Assembly: GCF_001854405.1 (NCBI RefSeq)
Contig: NZ_CP017718.1
Span: 930,001 to 994,000, forward strand
Reading direction: 5' to 3'
DNA from: Hyphomonas sp. Mor2
GTDB lineage: Bacteria > Pseudomonadota > Alphaproteobacteria > Caulobacterales > Hyphomonadaceae
DNA length: 64,000 bases
The notes beneath the pieces were generated by a model. The model saw nothing but the letters and a program-made list of their open reading frames with translations. It was not told the origin of the DNA and searched no databases. Below, piece after piece: positions 16,692-31,555 of this stretch (its first letter is position 1; every line of letters begins with the position of its first letter). The position numbers and the translations under genes are program-made.

Positions 16692-16798
16692 CAGCTCTGA
16701 AGGAAAGGCCCTTTTTTTTAAAAAGCGCTCGAGATGGTTTACAACATTAATAATCGAGAACAGTATCAATTCTAAACACAAACACGGTGGGGATTTTT

Positions 16799-19700
16799 GT
16801 GTTGGATAAATCTGTTGGTATATTTCTTAGTCATTCAACTCGGAACAAGTCTGCAACAAAAAAACTAACTCAAGCGCTTAAGAAGAACTTCACAGTTTAT
16901 TACTCCGAACATGACAATCAGCTCGGTGAGTCTTGGGTAAAGCGCCTAACGGACGAAATGCGCCAATGTGCGGTCGTCGTAATTTATCTTACCAAAGACT
17001 GGCTTAAGAATAAGAAGTGGTGCCGCGCCGAGTTTTACGCTGCTTTAATGGCCGGCAAGAAAATAGTCGTTGTCAACGCAATGCGTGGAAAGGATCACGA
17101 TGATCCAATTTTGCCCCTCTTGCAGGACTTTCGCACCACCAGACGAGGCAAGGTCGATTTCGACGATATTGTAACAGAAATTTCAAAACTCGTCCCGGCT
17201 AGCAGCGTTTCTGTATGGCCAGGCGATCGATCTCCATATCCAGGAATGAACGCGCTCGATATCGAAGATGCGCCTGTTTTTTTTGGTCGCGACGAAGTGA
17301 CTCAAAAGCTGGTCGATAAAGTCAATCGGAGTATCGACCTCTTCGAGACCGAAAACTTAATCTTGATGTATGGACCGTCCGGTGCGGGTAAATCTTCCAT
17401 TTTAAGGGCGGGATTGGTCGCGAGGCTTCGCAAAATGCCCAAGCGCTGTGAGGCCAAAGATCCTGTTTTTCCCGACGCATTTTCGGCGCATGTGCATCAA
17501 CTTGAAAGCGAAGGCTGGTTTCAGGAAAAAAGAGCGCGCAACCAACCGAAGCTCATTCTCTCGATTGATCAATTCGAAGAGGTGTTTAACTTAGAAGGTG
17601 CGCGCTACGCAGAATTTGAGGCGGCATTGTTGCAGTGTCTCTCAACCCGAGACGTCTTGGTCACTGCTACAATGAGATCGGATTTCATGCCGAACTTGCA
17701 ACAAGTCGACCAATTGTCAGGTCGCTGGGATGGCGTCTCTATCGACCGCGTCGCGCAGATGGATTTGTCCAAAATTATCGAACTGCCAGCAAATCGAGCT
17801 CAGTTTAGCGTTGATGAAAATCTGATAGCAGCGTTATCGCGAGATGCGGAACACCTGGATGACGCGCTGCCGCTACTTGCATTTACGCTGCAACGTATTT
17901 GGCGAAGGGCCAATGAGCGCAATAGCAAAGAATTGAGCCTCCAGGATTATGAGGCTCTGTTCAGTTCAGGCCCCGAAAACGTCAATGGTCTGGAGGCGGT
18001 CTTGGTGCAAAATGCCCGCACTGCCATTGATGAATTGGATCTCGACGATGATCAGTATCTCCTTATTCGAAGAGCATTCATTCCGCACTTGGTGGATCTT
18101 TCCGAAACCGGCGCGGCGATACGCCGCCGGGCACCTCGAACGAGTTTTCAACCCGAAACGTTAGATTTGCTCAGTCGATTGGCTGCGCCACAATGGCGCT
18201 TGATTAACTCCTGCAGTTTGCCAGATGGCTCGCCTGGGTTTGAAGTGACGCACGAAGCTCTTCTGCGACGATGGCCGCTCTTGTCAGACATTATTTCCGA
18301 CGAAGCAGAGAATCTACAATCGGTGCGACGAGCGGAGATAGAAGCGACGCAATGGGCAACTGCGGAAGATAACACCGATGATTATTTGAATCTGACCGGT
18401 GAACGCCTTGCCAATATCTTGGAGCTTAGGACAAACGATCTTTATCGAACAAGACTAGAGCCAATTTCTGCATATATCGCGCAATGCCGCAAAGCTCAGA
18501 ATGAAAGAACTCGAGAACAATCAGCCCTTCGCGAATTAGCACTGCGCCGAATTGATGATCAGCACCTAGCCCACGTTACGGCGCTCAATCAGCAAAAGCG
18601 TTTCCACGAGAGCCTGGCCTATGCCGAACGTGAATTAAGAAGCTTGGCGCCTGAAGCTATTCCCCGATCACTCGGTGGTATTTGCATTGCTGCAGCGCAG
18701 ACGCGCAGTCAAGCCGTACAGAAACTTTCCAATTCGACGCTCACGTGCTTTGCAGAAGTTTCGGATGGTTCTCGTCAGTTTTTGGCCGATGCCAAAGGGC
18801 AATTCTATTGTCTCAGTGCAAATTCCCCGGACGTCGACCTGTGGGATCTCAATCTTGGAAATGGCGTTCCATTGTGCATGGCGTATTTGCCTTGCACAGG
18901 CCAAGCACTGGTGGGTTTTGACAACGGTCGCTTGGTCTCGGTCGATACGATTGAGCGGATTGTGTCTGAGCCTATCGAGCCAATGAACTCCGAAATCATG
19001 TGCCTTCAAGCAGATGAGGCGAGCCGCGTATTGATGATCGGCGCGAGAAGTGGCGAATGTTTGTTTTTGGATGTCGACAACATGATCGCTCTAGAGGCAG
19101 GATCGAGGCGGCATCAGGATCGTGTCACGGGGAGCATATTTCTTCCTCAAACTAACCGCTTCGTCTCATTTTCTTGGGACCATTCGATCGGCATATGGGA
19201 CCTGAACGCGGAGACGAAGGCGAAATTCGTTCAACACCACTCTTCTATTGTTTGCGGGGTTGTCGCCGCGCCGGATGAGCGCTCGATATTGAGTTGGAGT
19301 TTAGACGGTCGTTGTGTCATCAGCGATCTGAAAGGGCGTGCCATTAGCCAATTGCCAGCCGACAAAGACGCGGCCGCGGTAGTTGCAGCGACGTTTGGTT
19401 CAAGCGCAAACAAAGTTTTTTTTGCGCGTGCAGATGGTACCGTTTGGCGATGGCATACGTCTCAAAGCGATGGCGGTGCACTTTCCGAAATCGACATTGG
19501 ATTTGATTTTGCCAATGATCAGCGCATCATTAATCTCATCGCGTCGGGTGATGGCCGATTTTTGACAATTGTAACGCTTGATGGCCGGGTGATGATCGTC
19601 GCACTTTCCATGCGATGGCTGATGCACACACAAAGTGTCGGCGCAGAGATTGTTCGATCATACCTGTCCTCAGACCGGACGAGAATCTACATTCTGCAAG

Positions 19701-21481
19701 CCGATGGTCACCTTAGCGTTTTTTCTCCGGAGAACTTGCCACTCACTCACGAGTTCGTGCCTCAGATCGAAGACCTGCCTCCGAGCGGTAATCGCGAAGA
19801 GTTATTGGAGGCTGTCATCAGTCTCCAGAAAAAGCAGGAAAGCTCGAAAGTAGATGGCAACTCCGCGACTTCAAATCATCATGTGGCATGGCCCATCGTT
19901 CGGCCGCTTGGACAATCGAAATTCATCGAAGCCAGCAATAGTTTAATCGGCATTGTAGATTTTAATCAGCAACAAGGCATCAAAACGCGGCTGCCCGCCA
20001 AGTTTGGCCGCGTCAGGGACTTTGGTCCCGCAGCTTCAGCCGACATCGTGCGGGTTCTCACCACGACTGATGACTTGCTAGATTTGCAATCCAAAACCCT
20101 GGAGTTATCGCAGCACGCAGAAGCTGATGCTTTCGGTTCAAGCGTTCACCTGATGCCGGGCTCGAACAGATTATTGTCCGTTCAAATGGATGGAACGTGG
20201 CGCCTTCACGAGGATCTAACCGACAATGAAGGCGATGAAATTCGCTCTACGACGGATCCGGCTAAATTTTTAGCGGTATCTGCCGATGGCGCTATGTTTG
20301 CGGCAGCCACGATCCATAATGACGTTCAGTTTATTCGACCCAGCAATCAAACGGAATTCACTTTAAATCGACGCTACAATGTAACGGGCAAGATCCAATT
20401 CGCTCCAAGTGGCGGTTACTTCGCTTTTCCTGTTTATAAGTCAAATGTGGTTGTCTTCGAAACTGCCCGTTCTAAAGGCGAGTTTCGGACCAGTCATATT
20501 AGGTTGCCCGATGCCGATTTGATCAGAATTCTGTCTTGGGCGCCGAACAATAGAAGTTTGATTGCTGTTCACAGAGATGGCGCTTGCCACATCATTCGAA
20601 GGAGAAAGACCGGCTGGGTCGCAGTTCCTGTTCAGCTTGAGGGTCGCTTTTTCCGACACCTGGCTTGGACGAACGATAATCGAGGCTTCGCGATAACTTC
20701 GGAAATCGGAATCGAGGTTTTCGACGCTGCGAGCTTGAAACGGACAAGCTTTGTGCCCGACGAAGATGCAATCGGGGTAGGGCCTATGGGGACTGACATG
20801 CCGGCCATTTGGCGGCGGGGAACGCGGATCGCGATCGATTCAGATGACGGCCAGGCTCAATTTCCGATCACGCGTGCTCAACCCGTCAGCCTCGATCCTA
20901 AGGACGGGAACAACGAAGCAGATCTGTACCAGTTCAAGATCAAGAAGAGTCGATTAAGAGTATCGCGAAAAAATGGTGATGTTTGGCAGGTGAATGTAAA
21001 AGAGCCGCAGCGCGTTCACGCATGCTCAAAGACAGGCCTGTTCATTATCAGCAAAGCCAACAATCGCACCTCAATTGGAAAATTCAGACCTCATGCTCGC
21101 GGCATTCGCGATATTCAAGCGACTTTTGAGACCTGGTGTTTTGATCCCAAAGGCGACTTCATCGCTCTTCTCGAAGGATCGGCGTTGCGCATTTTCGATG
21201 CCGTATTGGGAATTGAGATCTATGCTCTAGATCTGCCCAAGCGTGAACGTATTGCGCTCGGTTATTCCAAAGTTGAAGACGCCTTTACGATGGCATTCGC
21301 GCCTCAAGATGTGCTCACGATCGATCTGGAACCGTTTCGCTTGAGAGGTGATGCGCTGCTTGAAGAGATTGGACTGAATGCTGACTTTGCAGCCGAAGAT
21401 GAAAGCGCCTGGATCGAACATGCGCGTTTCGAGCTGATTTCAAACACCGAACAAAATGATGAGAAGGTGCACCATGGCTAG
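16799..21481 (+). CDS. TIR - STAND NTPase (nSTAND1) - WD40 propeller protein
   Basis: A 1560-residue protein. Residues about 5-125: TIR domain (VGIFLSHSTRNKSATKKL; WCRAEF with the putative NADase Glu about residue 78). About 146-166: PYPGMNALDIEDAPVFFGRD, the lead-in of the nSTAND1 family. Walker A GPSGAGKSS (192-200) and Walker B LILSIDQFEEVF (252-263) look intact. A helical arm follows to about 620, then WD40-type blades (for example SWDHSIGIWDLN) to near the end. STAND proteins detect a ligand, oligomerise and activate the effector domain; a TIR effector would deplete NAD+ and abort infection. The GTG at 16799 has GGTGGGGA five bases upstream; an upstream GTG at 16787 lacks one. It overlaps the S1-like gene by 8 bases. 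Confidence 0.9.
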   Translation: MLDKSVGIFLSHSTRNKSATKKLTQALKKNFTVYYSEHDNQLGESWVKRLTDEMRQCAVVVIYLTKDWLKNKKWCRAEFYAALMAGKKIVVVNAMRGKDHDDPILPLLQDFRTTRRGKVDFDDIVTEISKLVPASSVSVWPGDRSPYPGMNALDIEDAPVFFGRDEVTQKLVDKVNRSIDLFETENLILMYGPSGAGKSSILRAGLVARLRKMPKRCEAKDPVFPDAFSAHVHQLESEGWFQEKRARNQPKLILSIDQFEEVFNLEGARYAEFEAALLQCLSTRDVLVTATMRSDFMPNLQQVDQLSGRWDGVSIDRVAQMDLSKIIELPANRAQFSVDENLIAALSRDAEHLDDALPLLAFTLQRIWRRANERNSKELSLQDYEALFSSGPENVNGLEAVLVQNARTAIDELDLDDDQYLLIRRAFIPHLVDLSETGAAIRRRAPRTSFQPETLDLLSRLAAPQWRLINSCSLPDGSPGFEVTHEALLRRWPLLSDIISDEAENLQSVRRAEIEATQWATAEDNTDDYLNLTGERLANILELRTNDLYRTRLEPISAYIAQCRKAQNERTREQSALRELALRRIDDQHLAHVTALNQQKRFHESLAYAERELRSLAPEAIPRSLGGICIAAAQTRSQAVQKLSNSTLTCFAEVSDGSRQFLADAKGQFYCLSANSPDVDLWDLNLGNGVPLCMAYLPCTGQALVGFDNGRLVSVDTIERIVSEPIEPMNSEIMCLQADEASRVLMIGARSGECLFLDVDNMIALEAGSRRHQDRVTGSIFLPQTNRFVSFSWDHSIGIWDLNAETKAKFVQHHSSIVCGVVAAPDERSILSWSLDGRCVISDLKGRAISQLPADKDAAAVVAATFGSSANKVFFARADGTVWRWHTSQSDGGALSEIDIGFDFANDQRIINLIASGDGRFLTIVTLDGRVMIVALSMRWLMHTQSVGAEIVRSYLSSDRTRIYILQADGHLSVFSPENLPLTHEFVPQIEDLPPSGNREELLEAVISLQKKQESSKVDGNSATSNHHVAWPIVRPLGQSKFIEASNSLIGIVDFNQQQGIKTRLPAKFGRVRDFGPAASADIVRVLTTTDDLLDLQSKTLELSQHAEADAFGSSVHLMPGSNRLLSVQMDGTWRLHEDLTDNEGDEIRSTTDPAKFLAVSADGAMFAAATIHNDVQFIRPSNQTEFTLNRRYNVTGKIQFAPSGGYFAFPVYKSNVVVFETARSKGEFRTSHIRLPDADLIRILSWAPNNRSLIAVHRDGACHIIRRRKTGWVAVPVQLEGRFFRHLAWTNDNRGFAITSEIGIEVFDAASLKRTSFVPDEDAIGVGPMGTDMPAIWRRGTRIAIDSDDGQAQFPITRAQPVSLDPKDGNNEADLYQFKIKKSRLRVSRKNGDVWQVNVKEPQRVHACSKTGLFIISKANNRTSIGKFRPHARGIRDIQATFETWCFDPKGDFIALLEGSALRIFDAVLGIEIYALDLPKRERIALGYSKVEDAFTMAFAPQDVLTIDLEPFRLRGDALLEEIGLNADFAAEDESAWIEHARFELISNTEQNDEKVHHG

Positions 21482-22586
21482 CTTGGAAGTCGCATCAGTC
21501 AGGCCAAAAGGGAGCATACGCTCCTATTTGGAGGAACTCTATTTTGGCGAAGCGAATGAGACGCTCGCGCGATTGGTTTTGGGGACCGTGGAGGAGATCC
21601 AAGAAGATGGCATAGTCATTGGGTTTGGGGCTGATCAAAGCGCGTTCGTCTCGACAATCGATGGCGGACCTGATGTCCAATCACTGGAACGTGGCGCACT
21701 GGTTGAAACACTCGTGCGTGACGCCCATTCTTCGAGTGTCTCGATCACAGTTTCCGTCGAAGAAATTGCAAACTACAAAAAATGGAACACTCTGAGACAA
21801 CTTATGAAGTGGCGAGATGAGGTCAGCGCACGTGTCGTTCGGATAACAACGGGTGGTTACACCGTGCTGATGACAATCAAGCATGGCCAGCATTCAATTG
21901 ATCAAAAAGCCTTCCTGCCTGGTAGCCAGGCGTTTGCGACCCCGCAGGAAGACGTTAAAAATCGGGCAGACTTGCTCGACCAAACGCTGCCCGTGTTTAT
22001 TCTTTCGGCCGAGGAGTTGCGTGATAACATTGTGGTCTCCCATCGCGCGCTTATTGAGGCTCGAAGAAAGACTGAACGCCGCGTCTTCATATCGAACTTG
22101 TCCGAGGGAGATATCGTATCTGGCGTGGTCAAAAACATCGTGGACTACGGCGCCTTTGTTTCGGTGGATGGTTATGATGGACTGCTTCACATTAACGAGA
22201 TGAGTTACGAGCGTTTCTCTCATCCATCAGAAAAGCTTCAAATCGGGGACACTATCCAGGCGAAAGTCATTTCCACAGATCCCGATAATGATCGGTTCAG
22301 CTTGAGCATTAAAGCACTGCTACCAGACCCTTGGTTGGAAGTTGAAGGCAAGTTGTTCGTCGGTCAAAAGATCAAATGCCAGGTCAGCAATATTGTCGAC
22401 TATGGTGTGTTTTTGGTCATCCGAACGGGATTTGAAGGATTAATGCATGTCTCAAACATCGCTGACATTGATGATGGTGCGTCGCTGATGGACTTGTTCA
22501 CTGTCGGAGATGAGGTTTTGGTGGAAATTGCCGAAATCGATATTGACCAACGGCGAGTATCACTTCGGCAAGCTGTCCGCGAGTAG
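21474..22586 (+). CDS. Truncated ribosomal protein S1-like protein (four S1 domains)
   Basis: A 370-residue protein made of four S1/OB-fold domains. Domains 1-2 (about residues 28-95 and 110-180) are divergent. Domain 3 (about 202-270; GVVKNIVDYGAFVSVDGYDG, LLHINEM, HPSEKLQIGD) and domain 4 (about 288-360; VSNIVDYGVFLVI, GLMHVSNI) match the corresponding domains of bacterial RpsA, including the DPW linker between them. The last one or two domains of a full RpsA are absent. The ATG at 21474 overlaps the end of the TIR-STAND gene by 8 bases, so the two are translationally coupled. It is too divergent and short to be the housekeeping S1; a decoy, ligand or RNA sensor for the STAND protein is inferred. 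Confidence 0.85.
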   Translation: MASLEVASVRPKGSIRSYLEELYFGEANETLARLVLGTVEEIQEDGIVIGFGADQSAFVSTIDGGPDVQSLERGALVETLVRDAHSSSVSITVSVEEIANYKKWNTLRQLMKWRDEVSARVVRITTGGYTVLMTIKHGQHSIDQKAFLPGSQAFATPQEDVKNRADLLDQTLPVFILSAEELRDNIVVSHRALIEARRKTERRVFISNLSEGDIVSGVVKNIVDYGAFVSVDGYDGLLHINEMSYERFSHPSEKLQIGDTIQAKVISTDPDNDRFSLSIKALLPDPWLEVEGKLFVGQKIKCQVSNIVDYGVFLVIRTGFEGLMHVSNIADIDDGASLMDLFTVGDEVLVEIAEIDIDQRRVSLRQAVRE

Positions 22587-22778: not shown

Positions 22779-25559
22779 CTAGTTTCGAATCGTATGACGG
22801 AAGAACTTCTCCGTCTCGGGATGAAGATCGTTTGATAGTCTCAACAATGAAACTAACCGTTGGCCGTCGCGCGCAATCTCAGCTGGGTCTTTATCATAGT
22901 TGTACAAGAGGCCCGGGATTTCCAAAAACTTCGCATTTTGCCGCCCGACACCGTGTCGAATGACGACACCATCAACATCAAACTTTCGCTTTTTAGACAT
23001 CATTCTACGCTCAATTCTCAAGGTGCCTTTTTTGTATCCGGATATGCTGCCTCGGATGAATTTTACTTTTCCCTTTTTGTATAGACACCAGATCAGCAGC
23101 CGGTGTGCCAAAGCGGAGTCAGCCCAGAACGGCTGCGGATCGACGGATACATTCTGAACATTCACATCGTTTAGTTCGATGGCCATCGAGTCCAAAAACA
23201 AGTCGACGTCGAAGCCCGCCATTGTTTGTTCAATCTGAGCGAGCCTATCTTCTTCGCCCTCAACCAGCTTGAACCGATCAGAATTGAAGAGGTCACGCAG
23301 GGCATGCGCAAATACAAGTAGATCGCGTCGATTAGACCAGACAGCAGCGCCTAGATCTGCTCGAATAAGGTTGTTCATCTTTTGGATAAATTTAGCATGC
23401 CATTTCGGGTTCTCAAATTCTTTGATGCAAATCCGCAATATGTCTACAAGCGCGCCGTCACCTGAGCCAGACACAACAAATACTGCGCTCCCGTCCGGCT
23501 CATGGCGAAACTTTTGGACATCGTTTATCCAATACGTCTCGTTGATAAGTTTGCGCAGGGGAAGTTTGATTTGATTCTCATCAAGCCACTTTTCTGGCTT
23601 TTCTTCGCCGTATCCGGTCGCAAAAATCACGATGTCGCAATCGACGGTATCCCACCGATATAGCTGCTTCGTATCCTCTGGTTTGCCGTCAACTCCAGCG
23701 GCTGCTGCTTCGCGCACGAAATCCTCGTTATGAGCGGCCAACGCAGCTTGCCACTGTTCTTGAGTCTTATTGAAGGCTGCTTCGCTGATTGAGCCATCGC
23801 GTTTGGGCTTTTTCGTTAAGTCAATCGGCTTGTCTGGGAACGCGAGACGCGACAAGTAGTGTTTGCCATTGTTGATATCGAAATAATATCCGCGCACCTT
23901 GAAATCACGATAGAGCGTTAGCGCATGTCGGTCCCCCTGCGCATTGATTTGCTTTTGATACGCATAGAAGCTTTTCTCCAACTTTTTAAAAACCCGTCGG
24001 GCTGAGCTTTCGACGTTCCAATTCAGAGCGCGAATTGGAAAATCCGTTCGATTACGGTCGGAGCCAGCGCTTGGCCAATCATAGAAAAAAGGATGCAGTG
24101 TGCGGTGATCACAATTGCGCTGCAAAGGCATTAGGTGATCTGATTTTTCGAGTAAAACAACGCGAGCTCCAACTTCGCGCGCTGCGATTGCAGCCGACAC
24201 ACCGCTCACGCCTCCGCCCACTATGCCGATCTTCGTGTTCGACTTGATCTTTCCTGCTTTCCACAAGGCGTGGATGAGTGTCAGCGCTCTAGATTGTTGT
24301 GTATAAACGGTTTTCTTGCGCTCGAAGCATCCGAGAATATACACGTCGTGCCTGCGAAAATGCTTGTCGCGTTGGAGCGACATCGCGTCGAGGATTTGTT
24401 CGTGGTCAATCTCATCGATTTTTACCGAATGCCGAGTTTGCTGCTGTTTCCCGTCAATTCCACGGACTTTGATATCGTTTCGGAAAAACTCAATGTCTTC
24501 TCTTGGGATCTTATCGATTTTGAAGTTCAAGTCGTTTCGGTCTGAGTTATGACGACAGAAAGCTAGAATTTCACCGTCATATCCCGAGTAACGTGTCTCA
24601 AAGTCTCCATTGGCCTCCAATGTATCTAGCAGGGTATCTGCGTCAGCAACGCCTACGCGCGGGCCCAGCGGGCGGACGACTTGCCAACCGGTTTGTAGCG
24701 CTGTTGGAAATAAACCCTTCTTGCCAGATCGCTTTCTCAGGTACTGTAATCGTGCCCTGAATTTCTTGTGAAACGTTTTATCTTTTAGCGCGAGCAAAGC
24801 GGCGTATGAGCCGAGTGTCCTTATGCCGTGATATACAATCAGAGGACGCTTCTCCCAATTATCCGAAAACACATTGGGCATGATCGTTTCGATGAAATGA
24901 TCGTATATTGGGTAGTCTTCTGCGGGAGCGACACTTTTACCTCGAACTTTCAAATCTCGCTCAATGCGTGCCGACAATGTTGGAAACCGCCGATCATTCC
25001 GCCAGCGAACATACCGGTTCACGCTGAACAAATTGATCTTCGGACGTTCTAGCGCACCAGGGTCAAAGAAGGGGGGCGATTGGAGGCAATTATAGTAATG
25101 ATGGATGATACGCCGAGCGTGCTTATCAAGCACATCCATATCGGCGAACAACCTGCCGTCATAGTCTTCTCTATGGATGTGGTTGTAGTCCATTTTGAAG
25201 GTGTGATTGACGTGCCTTTGGTAGAACTGTGATTTGCCCGATAAAGTGGCTTCGTACTCCATCCCAATACGCGAAACGACATTCGACCTTGGCCCGCCGA
25301 TTGCGATTATATGGCCATCCAAGTTTGGGACCGAAAGTCGATCAGATATGTAATGAACGTGTATCTGGTCGTTTCCGGATCTACCCTTTTCATGGAATTG
25401 TTCGAACTGAATTATCTTCATTATTAGAGCCGAGGGGCGTCCAAGTGTGGTTGGATGCCCGGACTCAAGGCAAAGATGTAACGGTGCTTTTCCAAATTCT
25501 TGATCAAGAATGTTTTTTATTGGCCGAAGGTAGTGCTGTTCGGTATTTTTCTTCGTCAC
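22779..25559 (-). CDS. Uncharacterised 926-aa protein with FAD/NAD-binding Rossmann domain
   Basis: Not recognised as a named family. Residues about 1-420 have no assignable domain; the stretch with HIIAIGGPRSNVVSRIG (about residues 82-98) looks like a nucleotide- or sugar-binding loop. From about 445 a dinucleotide-binding fold starts (IGIVGGGVSGVSAAIAAREV, then VVLLEKS) followed by HPFFYDWP. A second dinucleotide motif, DIVIFATGYGEE, is typical of FAD/NAD oxidoreductases. The C-terminal region contains VVIRHGVG. The gene is alone between two boundary repeats and opposite in strand to its neighbours. The start is a GTG with a G-rich site before it; Met47 is an alternative. A defence role is inferred from position only. 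Confidence 0.75.
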   Translation of the reverse strand: MTKKNTEQHYLRPIKNILDQEFGKAPLHLCLESGHPTTLGRPSALIMKIIQFEQFHEKGRSGNDQIHVHYISDRLSVPNLDGHIIAIGGPRSNVVSRIGMEYEATLSGKSQFYQRHVNHTFKMDYNHIHREDYDGRLFADMDVLDKHARRIIHHYYNCLQSPPFFDPGALERPKINLFSVNRYVRWRNDRRFPTLSARIERDLKVRGKSVAPAEDYPIYDHFIETIMPNVFSDNWEKRPLIVYHGIRTLGSYAALLALKDKTFHKKFRARLQYLRKRSGKKGLFPTALQTGWQVVRPLGPRVGVADADTLLDTLEANGDFETRYSGYDGEILAFCRHNSDRNDLNFKIDKIPREDIEFFRNDIKVRGIDGKQQQTRHSVKIDEIDHEQILDAMSLQRDKHFRRHDVYILGCFERKKTVYTQQSRALTLIHALWKAGKIKSNTKIGIVGGGVSGVSAAIAAREVGARVVLLEKSDHLMPLQRNCDHRTLHPFFYDWPSAGSDRNRTDFPIRALNWNVESSARRVFKKLEKSFYAYQKQINAQGDRHALTLYRDFKVRGYYFDINNGKHYLSRLAFPDKPIDLTKKPKRDGSISEAAFNKTQEQWQAALAAHNEDFVREAAAAGVDGKPEDTKQLYRWDTVDCDIVIFATGYGEEKPEKWLDENQIKLPLRKLINETYWINDVQKFRHEPDGSAVFVVSGSGDGALVDILRICIKEFENPKWHAKFIQKMNNLIRADLGAAVWSNRRDLLVFAHALRDLFNSDRFKLVEGEEDRLAQIEQTMAGFDVDLFLDSMAIELNDVNVQNVSVDPQPFWADSALAHRLLIWCLYKKGKVKFIRGSISGYKKGTLRIERRMMSKKRKFDVDGVVIRHGVGRQNAKFLEIPGLLYNYDKDPAEIARDGQRLVSLLRLSNDLHPETEKFFRHTIRN

Positions 25560-25677: not shown

Positions 25678-25815
25678 AGCCAAAAACGGGAGCTTGAATG
25701 AGGCGCTTTTCGATTGGATCTTGCTGGCGAAGATCGAGAGAAGTCGCCTGGGCTAGGGCGGATTCCTTTGACCGTTCTATTTCATAGTTGCCCTTTCGAT
25801 GTGCAGTCGAAAAAA

Positions 25816-25834
25816 CGGGAGGAATTTTCTCCCG
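25816..25834 (-). terminator. Possible minus-strand terminator
   Basis: CGGGAG-GAATTTT-CTCCCG with six A residues (25810-25815) on its left, so on the minus strand a 6-bp stem is followed by a T-run. It would stop transcription entering the 926-aa gene from the right. The rest of the gap 25678-25951 shows no gene. Confidence 0.4.
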
Positions 25835-25951
25835 CTTCAAACAAAACGGAAGATGCGCTCGTCGTCGAGCAATTCGACGTCAAGGGCCCCTTTTCATCTA
25901 ATGAGCGTCGGAATAAGCTCCCGAAATTCGAAAATCCGAGGGGGCGGCAAC

Positions 25952-27184
25952 GTGATTGGGTGGGCGTTTCGTTTTTTTGGGGCCGTTTCAATTTGCGCGC
26001 TCCCTTACTCAAGCCTTTTATGTTTCGCAGAACCAAGAGAACAGTTTGCTCAATGGTTGGGAGATACATCGGCTGACTTGCGAGATCGAGGCGTCTCCAA
26101 CCAAACAGTTGAGGCGCTGGTCAAGAAAACGGAATTCGACCCATATGTCCTCGATCAACAATTTCGGTATTACAACAGCCCTTCGGTACCTCCTTGGAGA
26201 GTGCTTGAAATTCGAGCCTCGGAGCGAACGCTCAAAAATTCGCAAACTGTCCTCCAAGAACACAAAAACTTATTCAAAGATCTCGAAGAAGGGTATTCTG
26301 TTGATGATAGCATTCTCGCGATCATCTGGGGGTTAGAATCCGATCACGGAAATGCCGTGTTGACACACTCGCTACCATCGTCCCTAGGGACGCTTGCGTG
26401 CTGCGGTCGAAGGAGAGCTTTCTTTAAAGATCAGTATGTAGCGCTCGCGCAACTTTTAGACTCGGGGCGGTTGCGCCACGACGAGCTCCGATCGTCCTGG
26501 GATGGCGGCGTGGGGCAAACACAGTTTATGCCGACGACGCTCATCAGGTACGGTGCGGACTTAGATTCAGATGGCGCGCTAGAGGTTTTGAATTCGCCCA
26601 ACGAAGCGCTCGCTTCATCGGCAAACTACCTGCGTGAACTGGGATATTCAAAAGGTCCGCCCCTTCTATTGCCGATTTCCGATCCAAGTAAGATCACGCA
26701 AGGATTCAATGTCGATACCCATCGAAATCTTGAAGACTGGGTCGCCGATGGAGTCATGATAGAAGGCTTGGATCATAGTAAGTGGATGGACATCCCGTTT
26801 CGAGTGTATCGCCCATCGGGACTAAACGGAGCTTTGTTTCTGGCGAGTCCAAATTTCAGTGCGATCAAGAGTTACAATGGAAGCCATACCTATGCGCTGT
26901 CTGTTTGGTATCTCGACCAATGGCTTGAGACGGGTGCCAAGCCCGAAATCGACTGGAATCAGGATAGCCCTGCTGTCGGTCCAGTAGGCGTTGCGCTCAT
27001 ACAATCAGCTTTAGCGCTCACGGGTTTTCATAAAGACGATATCGACGGCCGCTTTGGACCTGCGACATTGACCTCGCTGCGTCAGTTTTGCGAAGAGACG
27101 AATATTCGACCTTGCGATGACGCGACAGAACACGTTCTCGACGCTGTGTTATTCGGATCGAAGAACGTCACTAATTCAGAATAG
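25952..27184 (+). CDS. Exported lytic murein transglycosylase (MltB-type) with peptidoglycan-binding domain
   Basis: A 410-residue protein: an N-terminal hydrophobic signal (VIGWAFRFFGAVSICALPYS), an MltB/SLT fold with catalytic Glu129 in IIWGLESDHG and the substrate-cleft motif GGVGQTQFMPTT, then a PG_binding_1 domain near the C-terminus (FHKDDIDGRFGPATLTSLRQ). It cleaves glycan strands to anhydromuropeptides in the periplasm. The start is set at the GTG with GAGGGGGC upstream because this puts the signal sequence at the N-terminus; Met at 25901 is an alternative. It lies 147 bases before the TIR-muramidase gene in the same direction, within the same repeat-bounded module, so both products act on peptidoglycan. 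Confidence 0.85.
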   Translation: MIGWAFRFFGAVSICALPYSSLLCFAEPREQFAQWLGDTSADLRDRGVSNQTVEALVKKTEFDPYVLDQQFRYYNSPSVPPWRVLEIRASERTLKNSQTVLQEHKNLFKDLEEGYSVDDSILAIIWGLESDHGNAVLTHSLPSSLGTLACCGRRRAFFKDQYVALAQLLDSGRLRHDELRSSWDGGVGQTQFMPTTLIRYGADLDSDGALEVLNSPNEALASSANYLRELGYSKGPPLLLPISDPSKITQGFNVDTHRNLEDWVADGVMIEGLDHSKWMDIPFRVYRPSGLNGALFLASPNFSAIKSYNGSHTYALSVWYLDQWLETGAKPEIDWNQDSPAVGPVGVALIQSALALTGFHKDDIDGRFGPATLTSLRQFCEETNIRPCDDATEHVLDAVLFGSKNVTNSE

Positions 27185-27331
27185 GCCCAAGGCTAATATT
27201 GAGCTTTTGTGCCACCGGGCTGACAATCGCTAACCCTCCGAAGCCACGCGAGATCTCTGCAATACATGAGGCTTGTCGGAGCTTGGATGTCATGCCAAGT
27301 CTGAAAGAGATCGAGTGTGGGGAGAGCGGTC

Positions 27332-30250
27332 GTGTCGGATCATGATAAATCAGGACGTAAACTAAAAGTCTTTGTGTCCTATTCTCGTATCGATGTGGAT
27401 ATCGCCGACCAAATTGTGCTCGCTTTGTCGGATCGTGGTTATCAACCGATCGTTGACCGACACGACATACACGCGGCAGAAAACTGGCGGGACCGAATTT
27501 CCAAGCTTATTTTCTCGAGTGGCGCTGCCGTCTTTATTTTGACCAAGTCATCACTTGATTCGGACATATGTCTTGATGAACTCAACGAACTCACAAGCCA
27601 AGGTAAACGGATTGTTCCTGTCGTTCCGAAAGCATTGGAAAACGTCACGATCCCGAAAGCGCTTCAGGCACTCAATTGGATCCACTTGTATAAATCCGAA
27701 TCGATACCTGGTTCGGGTTTCTACAATGGCATTGTATCCATGGATGAAGCCCTCAGCACGAACTTGGAGTGGATCAGGTTTCAAGCACGCTTAATGGAGG
27801 ATGCTCAAGACTGGGTAGATCGAGACAAGCCTGTTGAACTGTTGCTGCGCGGCTCATTGTTAGACGAGGCGAACACTTGGTCAGCGTCTGCACCAGAGGG
27901 GATTCAAATTGATCAACAGGTTCTTCAATTCTTAAACGCCAGTTTGGACGAACAGGAAACTCGCAACAACAAGGCGCGTGAATCGATTGAAAAGGAGCGA
28001 AAGCAACTCGCCCGGCAAAGACGATTGCAAAGGATTACCGCTATTTTGGCAGCGGCCATCCTCGCAGGATCTGCTATCGGTGGATTGTACGTCTGGCGAC
28101 TATCACTCGCAGTGCAAGTAGAGAAAGATAACGCCGACGCTGCATCCGCTCAGGTGGCGATTTCCAGGTCGACAGTGATAGCTGACGCAGCGCTCTCTAA
28201 GCTCGAGAAAAACGATATTGAGTCTGCAACACGATTGGCGATTTTGGCATATACTGAAGGATTGCCAGCCGGGGGTGTGACGGAATCAAATGTGGCACTC
28301 TCTTTGGTCGCTGAAGAAACGCGACCCGAAGGTTTTTTTCCGGGACATGAGAGTGACATCGTGAAGTACGTGGCTTCGACAGAAGACGAGTTTGCACTGT
28401 CGCTGACTCGAGATGGCATCGTCAGGGTCTGGGACTCGTTTAGCGAGATCAAAAAATTGGAGAATTTCGAGAGCCCGGTTGCCGACACAACTTTTTTGCT
28501 TGGGGCGGAGAAAATCATCACTGCGCATTTGGATGGCAGCATCTTGGAATGGGATTATTCTTCAGGGTTTGAAAATATCAGTCAGGTGTCGATTCCCACG
28601 CCTGGATTGCGCCAAGAACGCCTGGATCAGTCCATAATTGCCGAAAGTTTGAGCAGGATATATGTGCTTCCCGATAGATCGTTTGCTGTTCGAACGACCT
28701 TTGGACGCGTTCTTTTGTTTGGCGCATTGAACTCAAGTTCCTATCAACAAGAAGAATGGGATCCTGGTGGCGTACGGCGGATGTTCGTTATGACGGACGA
28801 CCCTACGCTATTTGTGGAAAACGCTGAGCGAGAGGTAAAATCCGCGTCGTTTCGAAATCTCGAGTGGAAGTTCGAGGAGGCTGCGGAGTACCCTGATCTT
28901 GCCAATCCTGAAACGAGTATACCAGCCTCTATCCGGTCATTACAATCCGATGCGTTCGCGTTCACTCTGAGTCCGGATGGCGTGAAATGGCTATGGCTCA
29001 CGGATCGAAGTGTGCATGTTTATGACATCAGGAATGAAGCGCATTTTCGCGTTGATCTGGGCTTGCCGATGGTGATGGACGGAGTTGCACAGAGCCCAAC
29101 AGAGAATTCGGTTGTCGTCTGGAACAGCAATGAGCGGATGATTGCACAATTCGATTATCTATCATCGCAGACACATGCGCTGGCATCGATCGATATGCTC
29201 ATCGATTTCAGTGAGCCGGTTCATTCTATGGAGCATATTGAGCTTGTATATGGTGAAGACGATGCGGTCAGGGTTCTCGCCCTCGAAACAGGATTTGTCG
29301 TGTCGGGGCCGATGAACGTGGAGAATGAGGATATATCAAACTATACATTCGCTGACGATGCAGAGTTCGTTGTCATAAAGACCCATCAGGACAATCTATT
29401 TGCCTTCGAGACCAAGACAGGGATTCCGATCTCTATCTATCGGAGTACAGCACCGGAAGATCACATTGAGAGTATTCAAGTAACGAATATCGATCCCAGC
29501 TTTTTGATGGAAAAATCGAATCTCCTGTGTGCGTCTGCAATCCGTAACCAAAGCCGATCGATTCTGACGGCCGAAGATGTCCGCGAGATTGCGTTCTTGA
29601 GGCGCCACGCGGGCGCGAACATTTGTGATGGTCCCTTGCGCGAGCCGATCCTGGTGAACGGACGATTGTTCGGTTCCAAGCAACCTAGTCTGTTCGCAAG
29701 CAACTTTGAGACTGCGCTGTCTTTCACGCTGAAGTGGGAAGGAGGGTACTCCGACGACCCCTTGAACAGAGGCGGACGGGTAAATCTGGGCGTAACGGAA
29801 GGCGTCTACCACGCATGGCTGACCAGCCAAGATTTGCCATTGAAGCCTGTACAGGAACTCACGCGAGCGGAAGCGGCGGCGATTTATCTGGAGAACTATT
29901 GGTATGGAGCTAACTGTGACAGGATGCCGACATCTTCGCTGGCAGTCGTTTGTTTTGATATGGCCGTAAATCACGGCCCTGGGGGCGCAAACCGGATATT
30001 CCAGAGGGCGCTGAAAGATTTAGGTCAAGACGTTTCAATTGATGGAGTAATGGGCCCCTCCTCGATGCGAGCCATTCAGGAATCAGATCACAATGAACTT
30101 TGGGCGGCGACGATTAGGCAGAGGCGGGCTTTATACCGGAATATTGTCGCTAGATTCCCAGATCAAGAAGTGTTTCTGCGCGCTTGGATGAATCGCACAG
30201 ATGACCTCGAGAGGTTCACGAAACCATCGGGCGTGACATTGGACCAGTAG
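27332..30250 (+). CDS. TIR - transmembrane helix - propeller-like region - GH108 muramidase fusion
   Basis: A 972-residue protein. Residues 10-135: TIR domain (KVFVSYSRIDVDIADQI; CLDELNEL with putative catalytic Glu83). About 145-185: helical linker (FQARLMEDAQDWV). 220-234: basic stretch; 235-255: one transmembrane helix. About 320-760: degenerate WD40-like repeats (GIVRVWDSF, GSILEWDYS). 792-972: GH108/N-acetylmuramidase-type domain with catalytic Glu803 in KWEGGYSDDP, LGVTEGVY and the PG-binding-like IDGVMGPSS. By the positive-inside rule the TIR is cytosolic and the propeller and muramidase periplasmic. The GTG at 27332 follows GGGGAG; GTG 27317 overlaps that site. I know of no described protein with this order of domains. 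A role as an infection-triggered lysis device is inferred. Confidence 0.87.
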   Translation: MSDHDKSGRKLKVFVSYSRIDVDIADQIVLALSDRGYQPIVDRHDIHAAENWRDRISKLIFSSGAAVFILTKSSLDSDICLDELNELTSQGKRIVPVVPKALENVTIPKALQALNWIHLYKSESIPGSGFYNGIVSMDEALSTNLEWIRFQARLMEDAQDWVDRDKPVELLLRGSLLDEANTWSASAPEGIQIDQQVLQFLNASLDEQETRNNKARESIEKERKQLARQRRLQRITAILAAAILAGSAIGGLYVWRLSLAVQVEKDNADAASAQVAISRSTVIADAALSKLEKNDIESATRLAILAYTEGLPAGGVTESNVALSLVAEETRPEGFFPGHESDIVKYVASTEDEFALSLTRDGIVRVWDSFSEIKKLENFESPVADTTFLLGAEKIITAHLDGSILEWDYSSGFENISQVSIPTPGLRQERLDQSIIAESLSRIYVLPDRSFAVRTTFGRVLLFGALNSSSYQQEEWDPGGVRRMFVMTDDPTLFVENAEREVKSASFRNLEWKFEEAAEYPDLANPETSIPASIRSLQSDAFAFTLSPDGVKWLWLTDRSVHVYDIRNEAHFRVDLGLPMVMDGVAQSPTENSVVVWNSNERMIAQFDYLSSQTHALASIDMLIDFSEPVHSMEHIELVYGEDDAVRVLALETGFVVSGPMNVENEDISNYTFADDAEFVVIKTHQDNLFAFETKTGIPISIYRSTAPEDHIESIQVTNIDPSFLMEKSNLLCASAIRNQSRSILTAEDVREIAFLRRHAGANICDGPLREPILVNGRLFGSKQPSLFASNFETALSFTLKWEGGYSDDPLNRGGRVNLGVTEGVYHAWLTSQDLPLKPVQELTRAEAAAIYLENYWYGANCDRMPTSSLAVVCFDMAVNHGPGGANRIFQRALKDLGQDVSIDGVMGPSSMRAIQESDHNELWAATIRQRRALYRNIVARFPDQEVFLRAWMNRTDDLERFTKPSGVTLDQ

Positions 30251-30338: not shown

Positions 30339-31555
30339 GCTCGCTGGCTGATTTTGCCAAACTGGTCGAGCGCCTAGATGCAGCGGGTGCCAGCTTCGTC
30401 TCGGTTACCCAGCAATTCAACACTTCGACCAGCATGGGGCGTTTGACCCTGAACGTGCTGCTCTCATTTGCACAGTTCGAGAGGGAGGTCACAGCCGAAC
30501 GCATCCGGGACAAGATTGCCGCCTCCAAGAAGAAAGGACTCTGGATGGGCGGTCTGGTTCCGATCGGATATGACAAGGCAGAAACTGGTCTGGTGATCAA
30601 TCAGAATGAAGCGAATATCGTGCGATCGCTCTTTGAGCAGTATCTTGTTCTCAAGGACGTCACCCGCCTGAAAACCTGGACGGATAGTCACGGGCTTCTG
30701 ACTAAGAGCCGGACCTGGAAAGACGGCACGCACGTCCCCGGCAAAAGATTTGCGCGCGGGCATCTCTATCAGCTGCTCTCCAATCCGATCTATCTTGGCA
30801 AGACCCATCATAAGGGAGTGCTTTATGAAGGCGTGCATGAGGCGATCATCGATCAGGACCTGTGGGATGAAGTGCAGGCGCTACGAGATCTAAAACGGTT
30901 TAAAAGAAAATCGCGGCGCAACCGTGCAGACAAATCCCCGCTAGCCGGCAGATTATTCGATGCGGAAGGAAATCGGTTCTACGTTTCTCATTCGAATAAG
31001 AAAGGCGCGCGATACCGATATTACGTTCAAAGCGAGACCAACCAGCGCCTGCCAGCTGCAGAACTGGAGAAGACAATTGCAGATGCGATCGATGCCTCCC
31101 GAACGCTGAGCGCCGACCAGGTCGAGCGCCCATTAGAATGGATAGAGCGGCTTGTGATCCATCCGACGACGATCGAAATTGAACTCGACCCAAATCTGAA
31201 GACAGCGGCGTTGAGCGTTCCGTATCGCATACGTCGCCGCGGGTTCGAATCGAAACTGGTCTTGCCGGGAGCGGTGCGCTCTGAGCCAGATCTGACGCTG
31301 GTCCGGAGAACGCTTCAGGCCATGGATTGGTTGAAGGAAATCAAATCTGGAAAGTCACTGTCCGAGGTGGCATCGACCCACAATGTTCCAACTGAATATG
31401 TCTCCGCTAATCTGGATCTCGCTTTGCTTTCCCCAAAAGTCTTGAGCGCGATCGCCGATGGAAAACACGATCCATATTTCACGGCGACGCGTCTGAAATC
31501 GATGATGATCCCGCACGACTGGAGCGCTCAGCAAGCTCTCCTGTTAGTGCAATAA
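30332..31555 (+). pseudogene. Serine recombinase lacking its catalytic N-terminus
   Basis: About 407 codons remain. The reading frame enters at LTRSLADFAKLVERLDAAG, which in intact serine recombinases lies some 70-80 residues into the resolvase domain, then SVTQQFNTSTSMGRLTLNVL and the long helix FAQFEREVTAERIRDKIAAS, followed by the recombinase domain (GHLYQLLSNPIYLGKTHHKG) and a C-terminal region. The catalytic Ser segment is missing, and an in-frame TGA at 30320-30322 lies just upstream. The first usable ATG is at 30434. The protein could not catalyse recombination; it marks the right side of the repeat array. The breakpoint coincides with repeat copy 4. Confidence 0.85.

Follow-up and report, generated by a model that had tools for sequence, protein, structure and literature searches.

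A TIR–GH108 fusion protein of Hyphomonas sp. Mor2 with a muramidase domain that looks catalytically disabled: a possible bacterial receptor for the state of the cell wall

Introduction

The described systems closest to the protein considered here include GH108 muramidases that carry a PG_binding_3 domain (TtsA/Sen1395, NMB1012, Brucella SagA, structure 7dnp, and phage endolysins), and Thoeris and other TIR NADase systems. Here, we describe a gene at positions 27332–30250 of a 64,000-nucleotide stretch of the Hyphomonas sp. Mor2 genome (contig NZ_CP017718.1, positions 930,001 to 994,000; hereafter the window) whose predicted product joins the two, a TIR domain being followed by a predicted transmembrane (TM) helix, a divergent propeller region, a GH108 domain and a PG_binding_3 domain. 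The protein has the domain pair, the fold and the catalytic-type Glu in common with the described GH108 muramidases, but it lacks their invariant Asp and Thr, and its GH108 domain is fused behind a TIR-TM-propeller. With Thoeris and related systems it shares a TIR domain with the conserved Glu; PADLOC returned solely partial TIR matches, and matches to the ThsB and ThcB4 models are weak. Unlike those systems, the fusion protein is predicted to span the membrane and to carry a wall domain, and no ThsA-type partner (SIR2 or TM with SLOG) was present among the 16 window proteins scanned with Pfam. To our knowledge, most described bacterial TIR defence proteins have no outer domain.

A third comparison is with modules in which GH108 genes accompany TPR-S-trypsin genes. 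The fused GH108 domain falls in the clade of those module members that are linked to TIR-TM genes, but in the modules the GH108 domain is separate or fused to TPR-S-trypsin, with catalytic residues intact, whereas local models for TPR-S, trypsin and RyR found no match in the window, where the neighbours of the fusion gene are an SLT_2 gene and a recombinase remnant. Animal Toll-like receptors have a recognition domain outside the cell, one TM helix and a TIR domain inside; the Mor2 chain runs in the reverse order and its ectodomain has another fold, and we claim no common descent. Zorya may be likened to the fusion protein by function, in that a wall-binding part is needed for anti-phage defence, the peptidoglycan-binding domain of ZorB being required according to the available text of PMC11890865; Zorya differs in being a MotAB-like motor complex, not a TIR protein. 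Wall-binding domains beyond TM segments, as well as attack on peptidoglycan, have been predicted in conflict systems, and the EAD1 and iSTAND systems are likewise predicted to reach or attack the wall; the portion of that source available to us speaks of PEGA, OmpA and PASTA domains and of lysozyme-like and papain-like ones, and TIR-TM-GH108 is not among them (PMC7159879). We regard the Mor2 protein as a variant of TIR conflict proteins, the general idea of reaching the wall being already in print, as far as the same excerpt goes. A literature search for TIR-TM-GH108 did not find the architecture named, and one for TPR-S with TIR returned no paper; the available sections of PMC8195603 and PMC10907252 likewise do not contain it.

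Domain layout and predicted topology

The gene (27332–30250, plus strand) is a single open frame of 972 amino acids with no internal stops. The mechanical open reading frame (ORF) listing offers an alternative start at GTG 27317, giving 977 amino acids, but GTG 27332 is the likelier start because GGGGAG (27319–27324, plus strand), a ribosome-binding-like stretch read from the sequence, sits 7 bases 5′ of it and could serve as the ribosome site. The Pfam scan used the 977-residue form; the residue numbers of E83, the TM helix, E803, N812 and V817 are those of the 972-residue form.

On the plus strand, the TIR domain (27368–27697, residues 13–122; 18–127 in the longer form) matches TIR_2 (PF13676, E 1.1e-18; 68.3 bits against a cut-off of 28) and retains E83 (27578–27580), the Glu of the SxxCxxE motif, which is Glu in 35/35 other aligned TIR domains. 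A basic stretch then precedes the single predicted TM helix (28034–28090, residues 235–253, hydropathy 1.91). The divergent β-propeller region (28316–29443, approximately residues 329–704) is recognised by WD40-type Pfam matches, every one of which lies under its cut-off (324–417 in the longer form), and by Foldseek matches to WD40 proteins with poor superposition. The GH108 domain (29720–29977, residues 797–882; 802–887 in the longer form) matches Glyco_hydro_108 (PF05838, E 2e-24; 86.3 bits against a cut-off of 21.2), and PG_binding_3 (29987–30199, residues 886–956; 891–961 in the longer form) is also above cut-off (PF09374, E 2.3e-13). An AlphaFold2 model built from an 18-row alignment has a mean predicted local distance difference test (pLDDT) score of 65.9, with ten-residue blocks of 76–95 in the TIR domain and 83–96 in GH108-PG_binding_3; pLDDT falls below 50 in the TM part (244–262) and in most of 419–787, which leaves the helix and most of the propeller at low confidence. 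For the GH108 part, Foldseek retrieves 7dnp (TMt 0.82, root-mean-square deviation 2.5). The initial annotation, made from the sequence before any search, had described one polypeptide in which a TIR domain, a basic stretch, one TM helix, propeller-like repeats and a GH108-type domain follow one another, with Glu83 and Glu803, and this layout is borne out, the propeller below threshold. Both residues lie at the positions given, the frame shows no frameshift join and the GH108 fold is there; the PG_binding_3 domain and the altered residues described below are new.

Hydropathy gives one TM helix in the fusion protein, with 7 Lys or Arg in the 15 residues before it and 2 after it. A helix follows the TIR domain in 13/15 TIR proteins tested in the same way, and Lys and Arg are more numerous before it than after it in all 13. 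By the positive-inside rule, the TIR domain would be cytosolic, and the propeller and GH108-PG_binding_3 would be periplasmic.

The catalytic site of the fused GH108 domain

Eight alignment columns are invariant in 56 other distinct GH108 domains, and the fused domain retains six of them, differing solely at two positions: N812 (29765–29767, plus strand) replaces an Asp, and V817 (29780–29782, plus strand) replaces a Thr, neither of which is missing in any of the 56. When columns conserved at 90% are considered, 15 of 17 are retained and the same two positions differ. The catalytic-type Glu, E803 (29738–29740, plus strand), is present in the fusion protein as it is in 56/56 others. The first comparison held 29 other rows, less one unreadable row (L062) and one duplicate (L029 = L050), giving 27 distinct domains; a second set added 29. 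The exchanges of Asp for Asn and Thr for Val keep size and remove chemistry, and because Thr (ACN) to Val (GTN) requires two base changes, a single sequencing error cannot account for T817V. The invariant Asp lies at E+9, a spacing that we take to be that of Glu11 and Asp20 in T4 lysozyme. The lost Thr lies at E+14, the spacing of Thr28 in TtsA, whose triad is given as Glu14/Asp19/Thr28 in the available text of PMC6996933. Judged by these alignments, the catalytic loss in the fusion protein is selective, and the domain looks like a muramidase that has been catalytically disabled with its fold kept.

How do the free GH108 proteins compare? By hydropathy, 5/7 have no hydrophobic stretch above the threshold of 1.6, and the other two (from genomes G098 and G086) have one borderline stretch each, at 1.62–1.63; their N-termini appear signal-less by eye. 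Glu, Asp and Thr are retained in 7/7 of those tested. These proteins are thus probably cytosolic and could be stored as active enzymes; in other words, the cytosolic-looking copies are intact and the copy predicted to be exposed is not.

The sole other fusion of a TIR domain, a TM helix and a wall domain that we found is a TIR-TM-propeller protein on an Agrobacterium plasmid (pAtCG920, L031). The wall domain at its C-terminus is of the M23/LytM type, and three histidines are missing from it: that of HxxxD, that of YAHL and the first of HxH. Among its relatives, taken as its best tblastn matches, the HxxxD position and the first of HxH each lack histidine in 29/29, and 24/29 have the YAHL histidine. 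An independent catalytic loss in the Agrobacterium domain is therefore rejected; because its relatives share two of its three His losses, it derives from an already degenerate group. A search of the class with the Agrobacterium protein returned mostly ordinary M23 proteins. Both fused wall domains look non-enzymatic by their residues, for different reasons, in a sample of two.

One GH108 lineage, several TIR partners

The Mor2 genome has 16 TIR_2 matches and two GH108 matches. The second GH108 protein (630 amino acids, locus L033) belongs to a same-strand cluster of GH108, TPR-S-trypsin and TIR-TM genes, spaced by a 13-bp overlap and a 29-bp gap as judged by mechanical ORF ends. Elsewhere in the Mor2 genome, at locus L034 (C1:174000-193500), five TIR genes lie within approximately 15 kb. 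In two genomes of the same family, G072 (L039/L096) and G050 (L040/L095), TIR-TM-WD40, GH108 and TPR-S-trypsin genes lie on one strand; these two loci are nearly identical and are therefore counted as one event.

The fused GH108 domain and those of L033, L039 and L040 form one clade in a tree of 57 GH108 domains (support 100/99), a clade recovered with the same support in a 29-row tree, and the fused domain is 45–50% identical to its TIR-TM-linked relatives. The TIR domains of the same loci do not form a clade. A grouping of the TIRs of the Mor2 fusion, G072 and G050 is rejected by the approximately unbiased (AU) test (p 5.5e-4) in a tree from which the long branches L033, L036, L037 and L038, the duplicate L065 and the nSTAND1 TIR were left out; holding all four TIRs together, including the long branch L033, gives AU p 1.2e-35. 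The nearest TIR relatives of the fusion are TIR-TM proteins with no GH108 in the fetched stretches (46% identity to that of L042). Among TIR relatives scanned with Pfam, 10/13 have WD40 propellers and 12/13 have no wall domain. Because the GH108 domains form one clade and their TIR partners do not, these trees indicate that one GH108 lineage has been coupled repeatedly with distinct TIRs, in one case through fusion. Outside this clade, too, TIR genes occur near GH108: a 307-amino-acid TIR ORF is the next gene on the same strand at L051, and four TIR ORFs, one of them TIR-pYEATS, lie within 10 kb at L059. The linkage of TIR and muramidase that the initial annotation proposed to look for in homologues thus exists as neighbouring genes and not, so far as the searched genomes go, as another single ORF.

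The fusion itself is unique among the genomes searched. TIR-TM relatives occur in 24/105 family genomes at 1e-20 and in 3/385 class genomes at 1e-15, Mor2 included in both counts, and GH108 of the fusion type occurs in 48/398 order genomes at 1e-12 (50 places) and 51/299 genomes of the phylum sample (57 places). The order-sample GH108 ORFs longer than 700 amino acids are the Mor2 fusion, a GH108-TPR-S-trypsin protein in G089 and a 761-amino-acid ORF in G098 whose start is probably overextended; in the phylum sample, only the Mor2 fusion exceeds that length. No second single-ORF fusion of TIR and GH108 was found in the 105 family, 398 order and 299 phylum genomes, and none turned up among the 12 loci, G050 and G072 again included, that matched two peptide patterns in a collection of contigs. 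Direct descent of the domain from a phage endolysin is disfavoured: the best phage identity was 35.7%, the highest among 12 matches listed of 590 records, all below 60%, as compared with 45–50% for the TIR-TM-linked GH108s. The TIR-TM part had no match in the phage set, and six peptide patterns drawn from the whole fusion protein matched nothing in viral contigs.

A possible wall sensor and its alternatives

At a little under an even chance, we favour a reading in which the exposed GH108 domain is a catalytically disabled peptidoglycan binder that serves as wall sensor or anchor, with the TIR domain as cytosolic output in a layout like that of Toll-like receptors. In its favour are the selective loss of D812 and T817, the retained E83, the contrast between intact, cytosolic-looking copies and the altered, exposed one, and the repeated pairing of one GH108 clade with unlike TIRs; the need for the ZorB domain in Zorya defence offers a precedent. 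A more specific version, which we hold only tentatively, is that the pseudo-muramidase ectodomain reads the peptidoglycan state of the cell's own wall and triggers the TIR domain through the single helix, the protein having arisen when a GH108/TPR-S-trypsin/TIR module had its GH108 effector moved outside and disabled. With the TIR domain in the cytosol, one helix across the inner membrane and the propeller and GH108-PG_binding_3 in the periplasm, the pseudo-GH108/PG_binding_3 part would bind peptidoglycan and be constantly exposed to the wall. Wall damage or muropeptides, for example from phage entry or as endolysin products, would then alter the state of the GH108 domain, the helix would relay that state from outside to inside, and the TIR output might be NAD+ cleavage or a cyclic ADP-ribose (cADPR) signal. 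If this is true, bacteria would have, in a TIR protein with a physical link between the wall and an immune output, a receptor for envelope damage, and the question of what membrane-bound TIR proteins sense would become testable.

Several points weigh against this proposal. E803 is retained, and a lysozyme-like endolysin with no catalytic Asp is reported in the available text of PMC5674055, such that residual activity from the Glu alone may persist. Asp19 of TtsA corresponds to E+5 according to the excerpted PMC6996933, and there the fused domain retains D808, such that the catalytic Asp may be that at E+5 or that at E+9; the loss of the Thr stands either way. The 29 domains added in the second set were the best Pfam scorers of the phylum sample and are hence biased towards canonical members. 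The LytM comparison is weak, as the HxxxD loss is not independent (29/29 relatives). Once long branches are left out of the TIR tree, the fused TIR belongs to no small group with good support. The predicted topology of the fusion protein is read from hydropathy. Finally, because only one such fusion was found among the genomes searched, selection on it is not measurable.

What else could the protein do? The pseudo-GH108 and PG_binding_3 domains might merely hold the receptor at the wall while the propeller senses, as propellers commonly bind proteins and as the prevalence of WD40 propellers, and the scarcity of wall domains, among the TIR relatives would suggest. We consider this unlikely, since the propeller is the most diverged part of the fusion protein and since anchoring alone leaves unexplained why GH108 and TIR are also paired as separate genes.

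We likewise think it improbable that the protein works from the inside out, with the TIR domain sensing or signalling infection and activating a periplasmic muramidase for an abortive breakage of the wall. This was the proposal of the initial annotation, and part of it has held up: a predicted helix joins the TIR domain to a wall domain, the association of TIR and GH108 recurs, with the GH108 clade paired with TIR-TM genes at L033, L039 and L040, and the family is one of conflict-type proteins. The retained E803, fold and PG_binding_3 domain also speak for it, as does the prediction in print that conflict effectors attack peptidoglycan (PMC7159879, as excerpted). The working muramidase is the part that is not supported: D812 and T817 are lost near the catalytic Glu, a pair of exchanges found in 0/56 other GH108 domains, and an active muramidase that is always periplasmic would have to be restrained in some other way.

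A role in wall turnover rather than immunity, with the fusion protein acting as a wall-stress regulator together with an adjacent lytic transglycosylase, seems quite doubtful. The possible partner is an MltB-type transglycosylase gene (SLT_2, PF13406, E 2.2e-64; 25799–27184, plus strand) lying 147 bp 5′ of the fusion gene on the same strand, and NlpD-type LytM factors are known as amidase activators. Set against this, the GC content around the fusion gene is low, the same stretch contains a recombinase remnant as well as another TIR gene (TIR-nSTAND1-WD40), and no relative of this SLT_2 was found at the other loci compared, which had short flanks. That the protein is a decaying, functionless chimera, as its single copy, diverged propeller and two lost catalytic-site residues might suggest, is very unlikely given that 972 codons are open, GH108 retains every other column conserved at 90% and the TIR domain retains its Glu.

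Wider GH108, TPR-S-trypsin and RyR modules

A TPR-S-trypsin partner is present at 15 of 28 distinct GH108 loci examined, the Mor2 fusion left out (L033, L039, L040, L047-L051, L053-L056, L059, L062 and L097), as a neighbouring gene in 13 and in one ORF with GH108 in two (G089 C111 and G066); partner genes encode RyR or TIR-TM proteins. The 13 loci with no TPR-S-trypsin are mostly short, endolysin-sized genes, some on stretches with short flanks, yet L057, L058, L060 and L099 have ORFs of 397–538 amino acids and lack the partner all the same. TIR genes occur at 5/15 loci with TPR-S-trypsin versus 0/13 without. A large RyR-domain protein (617–680 amino acids) adjoins the pair in 8/15; in three scanned with Pfam, RyR is above its cut-off in two and just below it in L055, and TrkA_N is above cut-off in one, and hydropathy, run on one such protein, gives two TM helices. 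Small RyR-domain ORFs accompany 12/15, including the TIR-TM-linked L033 (8484–8831), L039 (1639–2112) and L040 (2159–2632), as well as L051 (3840–4244) and eight more loci; Pfam places RyR above cut-off in 7/7 small ORFs scanned (six of these twelve plus that of L111). At L047, L048, L049, L053-L056 and L062, the large RyR-domain protein, GH108, TPR-S-trypsin and the small RyR gene occur together, a set that resembles a conflict module and may follow a channel-endolysin logic. One GH108 protein and one RyR protein were submitted to PADLOC, and neither had a match.

Phage RyR-domain proteins are described as cleaving or sequestering TIR-made cADPR signals (PMC13232231, a preprint, as excerpted), which fits the presence of both RyR and TIR-TM genes beside GH108/TPR-S-trypsin; given this link, the placement of RyR genes next to a muramidase suggests that lysis is gated by a signal. 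Sets of GH108, TPR-S-trypsin, small RyR and either a TIR-TM or an RyR membrane protein would then point to a wider wall-targeting conflict system.

In the orthologous TIR-TM-WD40 loci of G060, G057, G067 and G061 (L110-L113), a protein of 1413–1427 amino acids takes the place of the GH108 gene. It has TPR-S, trypsin, a peptidoglycan-binding tail (4lpq_A, E 8e-4) and a related N-terminal region (five sequences compared by blastp with no composition correction, E 9e-6 to 7e-8). Beside the tail is a C-terminal domain with a HAG...SAGC motif. A YkuD-like identity for this C-terminus was considered and is unconfirmed, with no Pfam match of that kind (two scanned), no NCBIfam match (two C-termini) and a model pLDDT of 31.8; of the C-terminus, the evidence supports the peptidoglycan-binding tail alone.

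Genomic surroundings

The SLT_2 gene encodes a second, divergent MltB type in Mor2, with a TIGR02283 match under its cut-off, a weak PG_binding_1 match and an N-terminus that looks export-signal-like by eye; matches in 28 other genomes of the genus are only 28–32% identical. GC content drops from approximately 0.575 to approximately 0.50 at approximately 16 kb and stays low up to the end of the window, such that the left boundary of an island is visible and the right is not. A promoter and terminator scan performed no better than shuffles. Downstream of the fusion gene, a serine recombinase (30434–31555, plus strand) from which most of the N-terminal resolvase domain is missing is a mobile-element remnant. 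On the minus strand, a 926-amino-acid protein (22779–25559) has an FAD/NAD-binding core at approximately 440–480 and no other convincing family match. The TIR-nSTAND1-WD40 gene (1564 amino acids) overlaps an S1-domain gene (16787–22586, plus strand), and a Tolypothrix plasmid likewise has an S1-domain gene (L032 4412–5293) in the neighbourhood of a TIR gene.

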